The notes under the pieces: generated by a model
The model's input: only the letters and a program-made list of their open reading frames with translations
Databases searched by the model: none
What the model was told of the DNA's origin: nothing
Program-made: the position numbers and the translations under genes
NCBI RefSeq assembly: GCF_003258315.1
Contig: NZ_CP030032.1
Location: forward strand, 844,001 to 908,000
Direction: 5' to 3'
Length of the DNA: 64,000 bases
Origin: Bradymonas sediminis
GTDB taxonomy: Bacteria; Myxococcota_A; Bradymonadia; Bradymonadales; Bradymonadaceae
Shown: in pieces, positions 10,522 to 58,491 of the stretch
Position numbering within the stretch: the first letter of the stretch is position 1
How the letters are laid out: every line of letters begins with the position of its first letter

Positions 10522-10890
10522 ATGGTCAACACCAACGCCCCCGACAACGTCGCCGCAGCCCCCGCAGAAGCCACCGTCACCGACAGCGGCCTGGCCTATC
10601 TCGTCCTCACCGAGGGCAACGGCGCGTCGCCCAGCGCGAGCGACACCGTGCGCGTCCACTATACCGGCTGGACCACCGACGGCGCGAAATTCGACAGCTC
10701 GGTCGACCGCGGCCAGCCCGCCGAGTTCCCGCTTAACCGCGTGATCGCCGGCTGGACCGAGGGCGTCTCGCTGATGAAAGAAGGCGAGACCACCCGCTTC
10801 TGGATTCCCCAGGCCCTCGCCTATCAGGGACGCCCCGGCGCCCCCAAAGGCATGCTGGTATTCGACGTGCAGCTGATCGCCGTCCTCTGA
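10522..10890 (+). CDS. FKBP-type peptidyl-prolyl cis-trans isomerase, cytoplasmic form
   Basis: 122 residues: a ~25-residue linker, then one FKBP domain (VRVHYTGWTTDGAKFDSS, VIAGWTEGVSLMKEGE, AYQGRPGAP, LVFDVQLIAV). These are the conserved active-site aromatic and Asp positions of FKBPs. A strong ribosome site (AGGAGA) precedes the ATG. It is a near copy of the lipoprotein FKBP at 14445 but lacks the signal peptide. There is an in-frame stop (TAA 10495-10497) just upstream, so no leader can be recovered. The leftover linker NAPDNVAAAP is shared by both copies, indicating that this one descends from an exported form. It likely acts as a cytoplasmic folding helper. Confidence 0.88.
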   Translation: MVNTNAPDNVAAAPAEATVTDSGLAYLVLTEGNGASPSASDTVRVHYTGWTTDGAKFDSSVDRGQPAEFPLNRVIAGWTEGVSLMKEGETTRFWIPQALAYQGRPGAPKGMLVFDVQLIAVL

Positions 10891-10929: not shown

Positions 10930-10999
10930 CGGGGCCAGGTCATCTTGAGCTGGTAGTAAAATAGGGCTTCTATCCCAGACCTAGAAGGTCTGGCTCCGG
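10930..10999. repeat. Solitary relative of the 76-bp inverted-repeat element
   Basis: The segment opens with GGGGCCAGGTCATCTTG and ends with CCAGACCTAGAAGGTCTGG followed by CTCCGG. This is the same two-hairpin design and orientation as the units of the 17.3-18.9 kb array, with arms diverged. It lies between the FKBP and MurC-like genes and shows that the element is dispersed as well as tandem. Confidence 0.65.
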
Positions 11000-14278: not shown

Positions 14279-14444
14279 TCGCGCGCTCTCGCTGGCTGCG
14301 CGACCTGGTATGAGCGCTGATGCCCTGAGTCTTCGGCATTCGCCCACCCCGAGCTCACGAATTCGCTAGATGCTCCATCTGAAAAGTGATAGCGATGCCG
14401 TGTTTGATTTTCGTTTATCGTCCCTCTTAAAACCCGAGCAGCCC

Positions 14445-14882
14445 ATGAAATTCATCCGACTATCTCTGCTACTTTTTACGATGCTCTTCTTTGTTGGCTG
14501 CACCAGTGGCCCCGACGAGAACGCCCCCGATAACGTCGCTGCGGCCCCCGAAGACGCCACCGTCACCGCCAGCGGGTTGGCCTACGTCATCCTCAAAGAA
14601 GGCAACGGCGCATCGCCAAACGCAAGCGACACGGTGCGTGTCCACTATACCGGCTGGACCACCGATGGGGCCAAATTCGACAGCTCGGTCGACCGCGGCG
14701 AGCCGGCTGAGTTTCCCCTCAGCGGCGTCATCGCTGGTTGGACCGAAGGCGTCGCGTTGATGAAGACCGGCGAGAAGTCGCGCTTTTGGATTCCCGAAGA
14801 CCTCGCCTACCAGGGCCGAATGGGCGCCCCCAAGGGGATGCTCGTCTTCGACATCGAGCTGCTCGCCATCGTTGGAAAATAA
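14445..14882 (+). CDS. FKBP-type peptidyl-prolyl isomerase, lipoprotein
   Basis: 145 residues from MKFIRLSLLL. The signal peptide ends in a lipobox (FFVGC; Cys20), so it should be lipid-anchored in the envelope. A linker (DENAPDNVAAAPEDATV) leads to an FKBP domain with VRVHYTGWTTDGAKFDSS, VIAGWTEGVALMKTGE and LVFDIELLAIV. It assists folding of exported proteins. It is a close paralogue of the cytoplasmic FKBP at 10522, with murC-like and murD between them. An upstream frame extension to 14370 is rejected because the signal peptide begins at 14445. The leader closely matches, at the DNA level, that of the unrelated lipoprotein starting at 15023. Confidence 0.9.
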   Translation: MKFIRLSLLLFTMLFFVGCTSGPDENAPDNVAAAPEDATVTASGLAYVILKEGNGASPNASDTVRVHYTGWTTDGAKFDSSVDRGEPAEFPLSGVIAGWTEGVALMKTGEKSRFWIPEDLAYQGRMGAPKGMLVFDIELLAIVGK

Positions 14883-15022: not shown

Positions 15023-17161
15023 ATGAAATCGATACGACTCTCCCTATTGCTGTGTGCGGTGCTTTTATTTGCGGGCTGCTCGGACGACGCGCCGAAAGAG
15101 AATAATGGCGGGGCCGATATTGTGGAGGATAGCGGCGGCGACGTCGTCGATATCGTCGAGCAAGAGGGCACCAAATTGCGCTTTGAGCCCAAGAGCGCGG
15201 ACTTCTTCGCGGTGCCGCTACCCAGTGATACCCGCCTGGCCGAAGACGGTTCGGTGTCGCTGCAGGCGTGGGAGAGCGCGTATGGCAACGCGCTGGTGAA
15301 GCTGTGGTTCGACGCGGCCGAAGAGTTGATGAACGGCTGGGGGCTTATCAGCGGTGTGTTTATGAATTTCAGCGCGCCGCTGGACCCCGCGACGCTCCCG
15401 CAGACCATCGAGGGGACGGCTTTTGACCTCGACTCGGTCGGTGATTTCCCGAGCGTCTTCCTCATGGACGTCGACCCGACGTCGCCCCAAAAAGGCGAGG
15501 CGCTGCCGATTGAATGCAAATTCACCGAGGGGCAGGGCACCTACCACGATGAGAATCTGCTGAGTTGTATCTCGCCGTTCGGCGTGGTGCGCCGCCCGCA
15601 GACGCGTTACGCGCTGGTCGTGACCTCGGCGGTCAAGGATGCCGAGGGCGAGGCGCTGGTGCCGGCGCTGGCGATGCAGAAGCTGCTTATGGGGCAGGAC
15701 GTGGACGGGCAAAACGGCACCGTCGCCGCCGCTCCTTATGTCGAGACCAGGGATATGTTGGTCGAGGCGGGGCTCGGGGCCGATGATATCGTGTCCGTGG
15801 TCCTCTTTACCACCGGTGACCCGGCGAGCCGGTTGGTGAAGGTCAACGATTGGTATCGCCAACTTCCGGAGCCCGAGGTCGACGCGGGGAGCCTCGAATA
15901 TGTCGAGGAATTCGACGATTATATCGTGCTTCGCGGCACCTATACGGTCCCGGTGGTTCAGTCCGGCGAGGCGCCGTTTGACGCGCCGCCGGCGGGTAAG
16001 ATTGTCTTTGATGACGCGGGCGCTCCGGTGGAGCAGTCCACCGACACCGTGCCGTTTTTGCTCACCATTCCGAAGTCGCCGATGCCCGCGGAGGGTTGGC
16101 CGACGATGATGTATATGCACGGCTCCGGCGGCGAGATGCAGGAGCTTATTGACCGCGGCGCGCGCACGATTCGCGATAAGCCGGAGACGGCGCCGCGCGG
16201 CACCGGCCCGGGCGGGGTGGTTGCGCCCTATGGTATCGCCGGCTTCGCGGCCGAGTTCGGCTTCCACGGCACGCGCTTTAGCCCGTCGGACACCACGGGC
16301 CTGAAGCTCTATAACCTGCTGGGCAACCCGCGCGCGGCGGTCGATAACTTCCTCGTGGCGGCCAACGAAGTAACCCTGCACGGGCGTCTGCTCGCCGGCC
16401 TGAGCATCGACCCACAGAGCATCGCCGAGGTCGCCGCCGCGGTCGACGTGAGCGCGGCCTCCGATGGCATGATTCGCTTTAACGACGAGCGCCTCAGCGC
16501 GATGGGTCAGTCGATGGGCTCGACCATCGGCCTGCCCGCGCTGACCATCAGCAAGAAGATCGACGCGGGCATTTTGTCGGGCTCCGGCGCGACTCTTATC
16601 GAAGTGGCGCTCAAGACGACCAAACCCGTGACGCTCAAGCCCATCTTGCAAGGGTTGTTGCGCTATCGCTCCGACGAAGAGTTGGACCGCTTCGACCCGA
16701 TCTTGAACTCCCTGCAATTCGCCTGGGACTTCGTGGACCCGGCGGTCCATGGTCGCCATCTCTTCACCGAGACGCACCCCGACACCTCGGCCAAGCATGT
16801 CTTGCAGCACTCAGGCGTCGACGATGGCTATTTTAGCATCTATAGCCGCACCGCTCTTTCGGGGGCCATTGGGCTTGATTTCGTGGACCCGAATCCCGAG
16901 CCCGAGACCCTTGAGATCATGAAGATTATCGCCCCGGACCACGCCACGCCGCTGAGCGCACCGGTCCAGGCAAACCTCGCCGACGGCACCATCACCGGCG
17001 TCGTGGCCGTCTATGAGCCCGAGGTCATGGACGGGCATAATATCGCGTACCAGGTCGATGACACCAAGGCTCAATACGCGTGTTTCGCCAAGTCGGTGGG
17101 CGTGGGCGACGCGCCGGTGTTTCGCAGCGTCGCAGACTCTCAGGTTGATACCTGTGACTAA
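15023..17161 (+). CDS. Large lipoprotein with lipase/esterase-like alpha/beta-hydrolase fold
   Basis: 712 residues. MKSIRLSLLL... ends in lipobox LLFAGC (Cys19), so it is anchored in the envelope, probably at the outer membrane. After an acidic linker, the N-terminal ~250 residues (ADFFAVPLPSDTRLAEDGSV, VFMNFSAPLDPATLP, RPQTRYALVVT) resemble the N-terminal domain of bacterial VolA/virulence-factor lipases. The catalytic part has a probable oxyanion region (GWPTMMYMHGSGGEM) and a nucleophile elbow SAMGQSMGSTIG (G-x-S-x-G, near residue 495). The substrate is unknown: lipid, ester or polymer. A clear terminator follows at 17191. Confidence 0.7.
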   Translation: MKSIRLSLLLCAVLLFAGCSDDAPKENNGGADIVEDSGGDVVDIVEQEGTKLRFEPKSADFFAVPLPSDTRLAEDGSVSLQAWESAYGNALVKLWFDAAEELMNGWGLISGVFMNFSAPLDPATLPQTIEGTAFDLDSVGDFPSVFLMDVDPTSPQKGEALPIECKFTEGQGTYHDENLLSCISPFGVVRRPQTRYALVVTSAVKDAEGEALVPALAMQKLLMGQDVDGQNGTVAAAPYVETRDMLVEAGLGADDIVSVVLFTTGDPASRLVKVNDWYRQLPEPEVDAGSLEYVEEFDDYIVLRGTYTVPVVQSGEAPFDAPPAGKIVFDDAGAPVEQSTDTVPFLLTIPKSPMPAEGWPTMMYMHGSGGEMQELIDRGARTIRDKPETAPRGTGPGGVVAPYGIAGFAAEFGFHGTRFSPSDTTGLKLYNLLGNPRAAVDNFLVAANEVTLHGRLLAGLSIDPQSIAEVAAAVDVSAASDGMIRFNDERLSAMGQSMGSTIGLPALTISKKIDAGILSGSGATLIEVALKTTKPVTLKPILQGLLRYRSDEELDRFDPILNSLQFAWDFVDPAVHGRHLFTETHPDTSAKHVLQHSGVDDGYFSIYSRTALSGAIGLDFVDPNPEPETLEIMKIIAPDHATPLSAPVQANLADGTITGVVAVYEPEVMDGHNIAYQVDDTKAQYACFAKSVGVGDAPVFRSVADSQVDTCD

Positions 17162-17190
17162 GGTTTAAGTGCGCTAAAGCACGACAAAGA

Positions 17191-17226
17191 GCCCCGAGAC
17201 GAATGAATTCGTCTCGGGGCTTTTTT
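17191..17226 (+). terminator. Rho-independent terminator after the lipase-like lipoprotein
   Basis: GCCCCGAGACGAA and TTCGTCTCGGGGC pair in a perfect 13-bp stem with a 4-base loop, followed by a run of six T. It closes the plus-strand transcript before the repeat array. Confidence 0.92.
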
Positions 17227-17316
17227 ATATTTGTGGCCGTCGCCGCAGGTTGTGTGCTGTGGGAGCCAGACCATCTTGGACTGGAGGTGTTCGATAAAGG
17301 CTATTGAGACCAAAAA

Positions 17317-18880
17317 CCGGAGCCAGACCATCCTGGTCTGGTGGCATTTTGAGAAGAATTTTACTCGCCAGACCTTGAAGGTCTGGCTCCGGGGGAAGCG
17401 CCGGACAAGTATTGGATAAATAAGTGCCCGACACCAAAAACCGGAGCCAGACCATCTTGGTCTGGTGGGATTTTGAGAAGAATTTTACTCGCCAGACCTT
17501 GAAGGTCTGGCTCCGGGGGAAGCGCCGGACAAGCATTGGATAAACAAGTGCCCGACACCAAAAACCGGAGCCAGACCATCTTGGTCTGGTGGGATTTTGA
17601 GAAGAATTTTACTCGCCAGACCTTGAAGGTCTGGCTCCGGGGGAAGCGCCGGACAAGCATTGGATAAACAAGTGCCCGACACCAAAAACCGGAGCCAGAC
17701 CATCTTGGTCTGGTGGGATTTTGAGAAGAATTTTACTCGCCAGACCTTGAAGGTCTGGCTCCGGGGGAAGCGCCGGACAAGCATTGGATAAACAAGTGCC
17801 CGACACCAAAAACCGGAGCCAGACCATCTTGGTCTGGTGGGATTTTGAGAAGAATTTTACTCGCCAGACCTTGAAGGTCTGGCTCCGGGGGAAGCGCCGG
17901 ACAAGCATTGGATAAACAAGTGCCCGACACCAAAAACCGGAGCCAGACCATCTTGGTCTGGTGGGATTTTGAGAAGAATTTTACTCGCCAGACCTTGAAG
18001 GTCTGGCTCCGGGGGAAGCGCCGGACAAGCATTGGATAAACAAGTGCCCGACACCAAAAACCGGAGCCAGACCATCTTGGTCTGGTGGGATTTTGAGAAG
18101 AATTTTACTCGCCAGACCTTGAAGGTCTGGCTCCGGGGGAAGCGCCGGACAAGCATTGGATAAACAAGTGCCCGACACCAAAAACCGGAGCCAGACCATC
18201 TTGGTCTGGTGGGATTTTGAGAAGAATTTTACTCGCCAGACCTTGAAGGTCTGGCTCCGGGGGAAGCGCCGGACAAGCATTGGATAAACAAGTGCCCGAC
18301 ACCAAAAACCGGAGCCAGACCATCTTGGTCTGGTGGGATTTTGAGAAGAATTTTACTCGCCAGACCTTGAAGGTCTGGCTCCGGGGGAAGCGCCGGACAA
18401 GCATTGGATAAACAAGTGCCCGACACCAAAAACCGGAGCCAGACCATCTTGGTCTGGTGGGATTTTGAGAAGAATTTTACTCGCCAGACCTTGAAGGTCT
18501 GGCTCCGGGGGAAGCGCCGGACAAGCATTGGATAAACAAGTGACCGACACCAAAAACCGGAGCCAGACCATCTTGGTCTGGTGGGATTTTGAGAAGAATT
18601 TTACTCGCCAGACCTTGAAGGTCTGGCTCCGGGGGAAGCGTCGGACAAGCATTGGATAAACAAGTGCCCGACACCAAAAACCGGAGCCAGACCATCTTGG
18701 TCTGGTGGGATTTTGAGAAGAATTTTACTCGCCAGACCTGGAAGGTCTGGCTCCGGGGGAAGCGTCGGACAAGCATTGGATAAACAAGTGCCCGGCACCA
18801 AAAACCGGAGCCAGACCATCTTGGTCTGGTGGGATTTTGAGAAGAATTTTACTCGCCAGACCTTGAAGGTCTGGCTCCCG
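17317..18880. repeat. Tandem array of 13 x 124-bp units, each a 76-bp inverted-repeat element plus 48-bp spacer
   Basis: Units start with CCGGAGCCAGACC at 17317, 17441, 17565 and so on every 124 bases to 18805. Within each unit a 76-bp element has perfect 13-bp inverted ends (CCGGAGCCAGACC / GGTCTGGCTCCGG). It folds into two hairpins, CCAGACCATCTTGGTCTGG and CCAGACCTTGAAGGTCTGG, joined by an AT-rich middle (GATTTTGAGAAGAATTTTAC). A constant 48-bp spacer (GAAGCGCCGGACAAGCATTG...) follows. Inner units look identical; changes cluster in the first unit and the last three to four. A degenerate half-unit precedes at 17261-17316. It resembles REP/BIME or MITE arrays rather than CRISPR, since the spacers are constant. 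124 is not a multiple of 3, so the overlapping 99-codon frames on the minus strand are artefacts. Confidence 0.95.
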
Positions 18881-18903
18881 GGGGGGAACTCCGGGTTATG
18901 TCG

Positions 18904-56184: not shown

Positions 56185-58491
56185 ATGAATATGCAAAAGA
56201 AATGGACAAGCTTTCCCTTGGCGATGATCGGGCTGTTCTGCCTGCTCGGGTTGCAGCCGGGCTGTGCGGATGAGGATGATAGCGCAGGGCCGGGAAGGCC
56301 CAGCGTCAGCGTGGCGAGCGACGCCGGGTTTGGGTCGACAGGCGATACGGGCGATGCCGGTGACGCAGAAGAAGATGTCGAGGAATGCGTTGGGGAGACC
56401 GACGCGGAATTATGCGACGCCAGCGCGGCGACCTGTGGTGAGTTGGTGGTGACCGATAGCTGCGGTGTGGAGCGGACCGTCGAGAGCTGCGGTGAGTGCA
56501 ACGCGCCGGATTCCTGTGGTGCGCTCGAGGCGAATCTGTGCGGATGCGCGCCGCAGACTGACGATGAGTTGTGTGCCGAAAACTCGGCGGTATGCGGCGA
56601 GTTGGTAGTGACTGACCGGTGCAACATCGAGCGCACGGTCGCGAGCTGCGGTGAGTGTGCGGGGGTCGAGTCCTGCGGCGAGCTTGCCGCGAACCAGTGT
56701 GGCTGTGAGCCGCAGACCGACGCTGAGCTGTGCGCCGAGAACTCCGCGGTCTGCGGTGAGTTGGTCGTAACCGACCGCTGCGGCGTGGAGCGAACCGTCA
56801 GCAGCTGTGGCGACTGCGTGGCGCCGGACCAATGTGGCGACATCGCGCCGAACCAATGCGGCTGCGCGCTGCCGACGGTGGCGGAGCTATGCGCCGAGAA
56901 TAACCTCGAGTGCGGCGAAACCCAGGTCGTCGATAAATGCGGCGCGGATCGCATCCTCGATTGTGGCGAAGAGTCGCTGGTCTGCACCACGCCCTTTGAT
57001 ACTTGCGGCGGCGGCGGTGACGATAATATCTGCGGATGTACCCCGACCACCTGCGAGGAGAGCGGGACCCTCTGTGGCCAGATCGACGACGGCTGCGGCG
57101 GCACGCTCGACTGTAATTATTTCTGCGTCGAAGGGCTGTCGCTGGGCGCCAACCACGCCTGCGCGCTCGGCTCGGGCAAGGCAAAGTGTTGGGGCAACAA
57201 TACCCGCGGAAAGCTCGGCGATGATTCCACCACGCAGCGAAAAAACCCGGTGGACGTCTCCGGCCTGGATCTCATCACCCAGATTTCGAGCGGCGGCGGG
57301 CATACCTGCGCGCTCACCCACGACCAGAAGGTCATCTGCTGGGGCGATAACTCCGAGAGTCAACTCGGCATCGGCACAACGGTCGACGCGCGCAAGCCTG
57401 GCCTGGCGGCGGTTACCTCCGGGGCGACCCAGGTCGTCACCGGTGACGAACATACCTGCGCGCTGGTCAATGGCGGCGTGAAATGCTGGGGCGCCAGTGG
57501 GGACGGGCAAATCGGAAACGATGAGATCACGCTGGGGGCAAAAATCGGCGTCCCGATCGAGGTCACCGGCCTCACCTCTGGCGTGTCTATGATCGCCGCC
57601 GGCGCCTACCATAACTGCGCATTGCTCGACGACGGCTCCGTGCAATGTTGGGGGCGCGGCGACTACGGTCAGCTCGCCAATCTTTCGACCACACCGGAAC
57701 TGGGTGGAACCGCGGTCGGTGTGCGAGAGCCGGACGTTCTGAGAACAGCCGCGCGTGAAAAGACGCCGGTCACGGTCGTGGGGCTGCCGTCCGATGTGGT
57801 TCAGATCACCGCTGGCGATAACTTCTCCTGCGCGCGCACTGCGCCTGGCGAGCTGTTTTGCTGGGGCGCGATGACCTTCCAGAGCCTGATTTGTGAGGTC
57901 GATGGACGCCGCGCCGATGATTGCGCAGTCTTCCCGACTATCGGTCTGGGTCACCCGATTGTGCGGTATCGAAAGGTCGTGAAATCAGCAAATCCCGATG
58001 CTGATGATGTGTGTCAACCTCCAGCGACGCGAAGAAATCCTGTAACAGATAAGTGTGAGTGGGATGAGTATCCGGTTACGAAGGCCTATATCGACCGCGC
58101 GCAGCTTACGCCCTTGCAGATATCGGACACCCGCAACAACCTCGATGTCGCGGCAGGCGCCAATCACATTTGTGCGCGCAGTGACGAGGCCGACCCGACC
58201 AGGACGAATGTCTTTTGCATGGGCCGAAACGCCACGGGTCAGCTCGGCGATGGCACCACGAACTCTTGGACCTCGCCGCGGGCCGTGCACGCCGACTCCG
58301 TCGGTAATGTGATGCGGGCGGAATCTTCGACCGTGCCGTTCTCGCTGTCGCTTGGCGATGAGTTTAGCTGCGCGATTGTCGAGGATAATAACCTGCAATG
58401 CTGGGGCAGTAACCGTGACGGCCAGATTGGCAACACGGCGCTGTCGCGCGACGAGAGTCTCATCCCCTTTGATGTGAAAATCTCGTATTGA
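56185..58491 (+). CDS. Lipoprotein with Cys-rich repeats and a seven-bladed RCC1-like propeller
   Basis: 768 residues. Signal peptide with lipobox LGLQPGC (Cys 28) predicts a surface or outer-membrane lipoprotein. After an acidic Gly/Asp linker come about four repeats of ~52 residues (units such as ELCAENSAVCGELVVTDRC, then ERTVSSCGDC, NQCGC) and a fifth degraded one, to about residue 310. Then follow seven RCC1-like blades, each with a C-A-L...C-W-G motif (HACALGSGKAKCWGNN, HTCALTHDQKVICWGDN, HNCALLDDGSVQCWGRG, FSCAIVEDNNLQCWGSN). The paired Cys in each blade suggest a disulfide-braced exported propeller. It probably binds a ligand or partner outside the cell; no enzyme motif is seen. A terminator follows at 58535. 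Confidence 0.85.
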   Translation: MNMQKKWTSFPLAMIGLFCLLGLQPGCADEDDSAGPGRPSVSVASDAGFGSTGDTGDAGDAEEDVEECVGETDAELCDASAATCGELVVTDSCGVERTVESCGECNAPDSCGALEANLCGCAPQTDDELCAENSAVCGELVVTDRCNIERTVASCGECAGVESCGELAANQCGCEPQTDAELCAENSAVCGELVVTDRCGVERTVSSCGDCVAPDQCGDIAPNQCGCALPTVAELCAENNLECGETQVVDKCGADRILDCGEESLVCTTPFDTCGGGGDDNICGCTPTTCEESGTLCGQIDDGCGGTLDCNYFCVEGLSLGANHACALGSGKAKCWGNNTRGKLGDDSTTQRKNPVDVSGLDLITQISSGGGHTCALTHDQKVICWGDNSESQLGIGTTVDARKPGLAAVTSGATQVVTGDEHTCALVNGGVKCWGASGDGQIGNDEITLGAKIGVPIEVTGLTSGVSMIAAGAYHNCALLDDGSVQCWGRGDYGQLANLSTTPELGGTAVGVREPDVLRTAAREKTPVTVVGLPSDVVQITAGDNFSCARTAPGELFCWGAMTFQSLICEVDGRRADDCAVFPTIGLGHPIVRYRKVVKSANPDADDVCQPPATRRNPVTDKCEWDEYPVTKAYIDRAQLTPLQISDTRNNLDVAAGANHICARSDEADPTRTNVFCMGRNATGQLGDGTTNSWTSPRAVHADSVGNVMRAESSTVPFSLSLGDEFSCAIVEDNNLQCWGSNRDGQIGNTALSRDESLIPFDVKISY

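Follow-up and report, generated by a model that had tools for sequence, protein, structure and literature searches.

The locus analysed here raises the question of what kind of object a 76-bp element with inverted ends is when it stands thirteen times, in strict register, between two convergent genes of the predatory marine bacterium Bradymonas sediminis, which activity could have spread it, and whether it serves any purpose at that site. The array lies in a stretch of 64,000 nucleotides (positions 844,001 to 908,000 of contig NZ_CP030032.1), hereafter the window, whose positions are counted from its first letter, while coordinates preceded by C1 are those of the whole chromosome. The locus is very probably a tandem array of REPINs, and its REP family has its cognate transposase in a RAYT of the same chromosome (C1:2524653-2525255). 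The features that enter the argument are collected in Table 1.

Table 1. Location of the array, its component repeats, the neighbouring genes and the RAYT gene (window positions unless preceded by C1).
Feature	Position	Strand	Basis or remark
Whole tandem array, 13 REPINs and 12 spacers	17309..18884	.	Tandem Repeats Finder, unit alignment
REPIN copy 1 (76 bp)	17317..17392	+	further copies each 124 bp; last one at 18805-18880
5' REP of copy 2, tag GGAG, loop ATCTT	17443..17465 (C1:861443-861465)	+	genome pattern match
3' REP of copy 2, tag GGAG, loop TTCAA	17492..17514 (C1:861492-861514)	-	genome pattern match
Constant 48-bp spacer 3' of copy 2	17517..17564	.	BLAST and 20-mer comparison: this array alone
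Upstream of the array: decayed REP GGAGCCAGACCATCTTGGACTGG with a single mismatch in its stem	17262..17284	+	palindrome search
Solitary REP of the array's family, between two genes	10975..10997	-	palindrome search, genome pattern match
Left neighbour gene (712 aa; N-terminus weakly similar to VolA/Pla-1 lipases)	15023..17161	+	converges on array
Intrinsic terminator-like hairpin of left gene, apart from the array	17186..17225	+	18-bp stem, then T-rich tail
Right neighbour gene, ThiF (MoeB-type) + rhodanese, 409 aa	18904..20133	-	converges on array, whose end lies about 20 bp beyond its stop codon
RAYT gene, 201 aa	C1:2524653-2525255		Y1 transposase domain; between two arrays of the window array's REP

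Organisation of the array

In the unit alignment, the 76-bp element is repeated thirteen times at 17317-18880, its copies starting at 17317 + 124n and being separated by 12 complete spacers; Tandem Repeats Finder, with slightly wider limits, returns a period of 124, 12.7 copies, 99% matches and 0 indels. Copies 2-9 are letter-for-letter identical. Differences are found at 4 positions in copy 1, at 1 each in copies 10 and 11 and at 3 in copy 12, one substitution being common to copies 11 and 12, and copy 13 is not followed by a matching spacer. Thus, the near-perfect copies every 124 bases, the perfect 13-bp inverted ends, the constant 48-bp spacer and the homogenised centre with variants confined to the outer copies (1 and 10-13), all of them noticed in a preliminary description of this DNA, are confirmed by the alignment and by Tandem Repeats Finder. 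The same description had taken the minus-strand frames of about 99 aa for artefacts, and rightly so, because the array period of 124 is 1 modulo 3.

Each element of the array contains two inverted REPs of the form GGAG-CCAGACC-N5-GGTCTGG, one per orientation, and REP orientation alternates (+-) along the whole array. The inverted ends of the element are perfect over 13 bp, and 48 of its 76 positions are palindromic. Folded as single-stranded DNA, it gives one long hairpin of -24.8 kcal/mol, compared with -8.15 +/- 2.2 kcal/mol for shuffled sequences (z -7.57). An inverted REP pair, a short linker and the capacity to form a single hairpin are what is expected of a REPIN or BIME and, judged by its sequence, the array unit is a REPIN, that is, a non-autonomous element of two inverted GGAG-tagged REPs.

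A REP family dispersed across the chromosome

The tagged palindrome GGAG-CCAGACC-N3-7-GGTCTGG has 84 copies in the 5,045,683-bp chromosome (26 of them in the array of the window) and 0 in the reversed control, and the untagged palindrome has 87 against 2. When only GGAGCCAG and CTGG are fixed, this looser pattern yields 119 matches versus 10 in the control, with stems of the AGGTC/GACCT and AGCGC/GC(A/T)CT types alongside AGACC/GGTCT. Within the window, the palindrome with up to 2 mismatches is matched 29 times where 0.17 would be expected. Of 88 hairpins in the loci that were examined, 82 fall outside genes predicted with a simple codon model, and most of the remaining 6 are placed at the ends of called frames.

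Pairing of the stem was assessed on 18 distinct sequences, in which 95% of the cells are paired; shuffling lowers this value to 88%, and sliding of the partner to 47% at most. The four outer stem pairs, fixed by the search pattern, are uninformative in this comparison. Double-sided changes are seen in 8 stem cells, and two of the three stem pairs that are free to vary show them, a sign of selection on the stem.

A short palindrome of high copy number, distributed genome-wide and mostly extragenic, corresponds to a REP. Its conserved tetranucleotide is GGAG, and not the GT[AG]G tag of the canonical REPs, which is carried by described REP families (PMC6006769, PMC3733652). Taking into account that some TnpA_REP classes have REPs without GT[AG]G (PMC6006769), this tag excludes the family from the canonical subset and not from REPs at large.

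The preliminary description had proposed that the 76-bp element be sought elsewhere in the genome, and had named its absence there as a refutation. This recurrence is real at the level of the REP (the 84 tagged copies) and fails for the entire element, whose best match outside the array (BLAST) is 76% identical and adjoins the RAYT gene; beyond the array, the repeats are 23-nt REPs alone. Other REP arrays of the genome have periods of 44, 85, 87/91, 97-99 and 108/109, with different flanks and spacers. Elsewhere in the window, two FKBP-type isomerase genes (10522-10890 and 14370-14882), about 83% identical over 300 nt, flank a murC/murD-like pair, and only the gene at 10522-10890 has a REP after it.

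The cognate RAYT gene

The chromosome encodes nine Y1 transposase domains, one of which (C1:2524707-2524919) is located inside the RAYT gene of Table 1. One flank of this gene has eight REPs repeated every 44 bp, and the other a REPIN array of 108/109-bp period, in which two unit variants mostly alternate. The ATCTT-loop hairpin of both arrays is identical to that of the window array.

The encoded protein scores 26.9 bits against PF01797 (cut-off 23), and 67.7 bits against the RAYT model NF047646 versus 19.4 against the IS200 model NF033573, the equivalog cut-off of NF047646 being 80 bits, a value exceeded by two other RAYTs of the genome. TnpA_REP (4er8) is the best solved structure for the family profile. 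In the alignment of homologues, the HIH motif (H122, H124) and a tyrosine at the catalytic position (Y182) are invariant, as are W161, Q162, D167, R168 and R171, which, in our reading of the alignment, would correspond to the guide-contacting residues W94, Q95, E/D100, H/R101 and R104 (PMC6006769). A HuH motif and the catalytic tyrosine of a Y1 transposase, in a gene that stands between arrays of its own REP, point to a RAYT, and this enzyme probably spread the REP element of the array. The presence of such a gene (TnpA-REP), for which the preliminary description had proposed a search, outside the window and between arrays of the same REP, together with the tagged palindromes distributed genome-wide, bears out the early suggestion of a REP/BIME-type array.

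GGAG-tagged palindromes of other sequence surround two further RAYTs, at C1:1511583 and C1:3846158. In both regions (C1:1510000-1514000 and C1:3844500-3848500), these palindromes are of the GCGGGC type and occur on either side of the gene, and in the first a 111-bp REPIN-like repeat is present on one side.

Distribution in related genomes

The closest homologue of the RAYT, 53-54% identical, is encoded in another genus of the family (genome G013), where its gene has flanking arrays of GGAG-G-CAGACC-ATCTT-GGTCTG, repeated every 33 bp; this genome has 48 exact copies of that sequence, most of them dispersed. Among 284 genomes of the phylum, the REP is present in number only in B. sediminis (86) and G013 (50), the others having 0-2, and a RAYT at least 49% identical is encoded only in the same two. 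Such a coincidence would have a chance of about 1 in 40,000 if the genomes were independent, which relatives are not, and the co-occurrence of REP and RAYT rests on few events because only two genomes carry the pair.

A scan of wider genome contigs with the RAYT profile gave 40 loci, at most 47% identical and none titled Bradymonadales; at one of them, from Acidobacteria, an AGGAGC-tagged GCGGGC palindrome adjoins the RAYT. Some additional arrangements were observed. The RAYT locus of G013 (L119:2366-3940) has two REP flavours, CAGCGCT-TCG-AGCGCTG with a 30-bp period and CAGACC-N5-GGTCTG with a 33-bp period, and a CAGCGCT-like stem is also present at locus L043 of the B. sediminis genome. About 17 further weak RAYT-like matches in the G013 chromosome, in frames of about 330-518 aa, apparently belong to a separate multi-copy family. 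At L124:4505-5955 (G020 C415), a RAYT-like gene lies between long inverted arrays of about 45-bp units, an arrangement that resembles a RAYT flanked by terminal inverted repeats.

Neighbouring genes and a possible boundary role

Whether the array does anything for its neighbours is a matter of function, compatible with its identity as a REPIN array and not a competing identity. The same applies to the other two suggestions of the preliminary description, a protein-binding or chromosome-organising site and a source of RNA hairpins, which would be effects that a REP array may have. The array could have been kept, like a BIME, for terminating transcription, for protecting the 3' ends of convergent mRNAs or for relieving supercoiling through the binding of gyrase or a nucleoid protein, effects of a kind known for REPs of other bacteria (cited in PMC8049555 and PMC3733652). 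The position between convergent genes agrees with such a role. On the right side, the stop codon of the ThiF-type gene and the last hairpin are about 20 bp apart, and the interval from this gene to the array shows no terminator with a T-run. A function at this site is possible for that reason, and it may be speculated that the array sets a boundary to transcription of the ThiF-type gene or to the 3' end of its mRNA. However, the left gene already has a strong terminator of its own, for which a search of Rfam gave a sub-threshold match to NsiR1 only; the loci orthologous to the neighbour genes, as far as they were examined in family members, lack the REP; and the identical central copies indicate recent growth instead of long conservation. 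Retention for a boundary role is judged rather unlikely. A wider scenario, in which a separate Bradymonadales RAYT/REP lineage with a GGAG guide makes very long REPIN arrays that the host has come to use, between convergent genes, as strong boundaries in both directions, seems a good deal less likely still. The array probably represents a by-product of the life of REPINs in the genome, tolerated because of its placement between two gene ends.

Origin of the array

By analogy with E. coli TnpA_REP, the RAYT would most likely recognise single-stranded hairpins through their tag and stem-loop, and would have cut one REPIN and re-joined it into the gap between the convergent genes. The repeats themselves suggest that host replication or recombination would then have duplicated in tandem a 124-bp segment, made up of the REPIN and 48 bp of local flank, and that unequal exchange would have homogenised the central copies. 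The 20-mers of the spacer were not found elsewhere in the 64-kb window, and none of the listed out-of-array BLAST matches of the 124-bp unit reaches beyond unit position 91. As no second place was found for the 48-bp spacer, the most likely course is the insertion of one REPIN, followed by its local duplication in tandem. No similar DNA was found in a plasmid collection. When the spacer is compared with the surrounding DNA, the alignment on the left is marginal (4 of 500 shuffles were as good) and there is none on the right, so that the original flanks of the array could not be identified. Neither an empty site, sought through the orthologues of both array neighbours, which lie far apart in the complete genome G013, nor a second isolate was found that would prove insertion before expansion.

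The RAYT itself could also build arrays, for instance if it inserts concatemers or if it cleaves and transfers strands several times at a REPIN already in place, and perfect arrays do flank RAYT genes both here and in the related genus. This seems improbable, taking into account that each array has its own local spacer and period, for which local duplication is simpler, and that local REPIN amplification has been attributed to the host replication machinery (PMC8049555).

More improbable than this is an assembly artefact, in which one or a few units were expanded by the assembler or their number is wrong. Copies 2-9 are indeed identical, and the copy number of such arrays is hard to assemble, but the edge copies 10-12 bear ordered private and shared substitutions, and comparable arrays with distinct variants exist elsewhere, at several places in this genome and also in another one.

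Other repeat classes

The regular spacing and the palindromic units could recall a CRISPR, an integron attC array, an RNA family or a protein-coding repeat, but the likelihood of any of these is negligible, since the spacers are identical and not diverse and, at 48 bp, contain no gene, every Rfam match stays below its gathering score and a period of 124 bp is not divisible by three. The exclusion of CRISPR on account of the constant spacers, already made in the preliminary description, stands on the unit alignment. Over the array, Rfam gave only sub-threshold matches, at chance level, to eukaryotic miRNA models, as a hairpin artefact. Apart from this locus, the window contains at 56433-56900 a diverged tandem repeat of 159 bp (2.9 copies, 71% matches), which is probably coding.

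Significance and comparison with known systems

With this array, REPIN/RAYT systems are extended to the predatory Bradymonadales (class Bradymonadia, Myxococcota), where no earlier description was found, and the tag of their REP differs from the published guide sequence. No paper was found that mentions a RAYT along with GGAG, nor one that names both RAYT and REP sequences in connection with Deltaproteobacteria, which is weak evidence of novelty, as most subscription journals lie outside the search. The genera of B. sediminis and G013 constitute a natural pair for testing how a RAYT recognises tag and stem, and the 13-copy array offers a convenient locus for measuring the expansion and contraction of REPIN arrays.

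The nearest parallel is Pseudomonas fluorescens SBW25, in which tandem clusters of REPINs that include their flanks, the largest with four REPINs, adjoin RAYTs (PMC3116915). Both systems share inverted REP doublets, near-identical tandem REPINs with flanking sequence, clusters beside a RAYT and one REP flavour per RAYT, whereas in B. sediminis the REPINs are thirteen instead of four, the host phylum and the palindrome are others and the tag is GGAG. As in the BIMEs and the REPtron of E. coli, with its TnpA_REP (PMC8266576, PMC6006769), a REP and an inverted REP are joined by a linker and repeated in tandem, and the HuH/Y1 gene is flanked by its own REPs; unlike the E. coli REPs, with GTAG and a bulged stem, the REP of B. 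sediminis is tagged with GGAG and its 7-bp stem is perfect, which brings it nearer to the perfect-palindrome REPs of group 3. The GTAG-tagged REP families (PMC3733652) and the RAYTs of Nunvar et al. (PMC2817692) offer the same picture of short, tagged, intergenic palindromes near RAYT genes, although here the tag is GGAG, which is also carried by the palindromes next to two further RAYTs of B. sediminis. In sum, the class of object is already known, and what this case adds is the new lineage, the altered tag and an unusually long and regular array.
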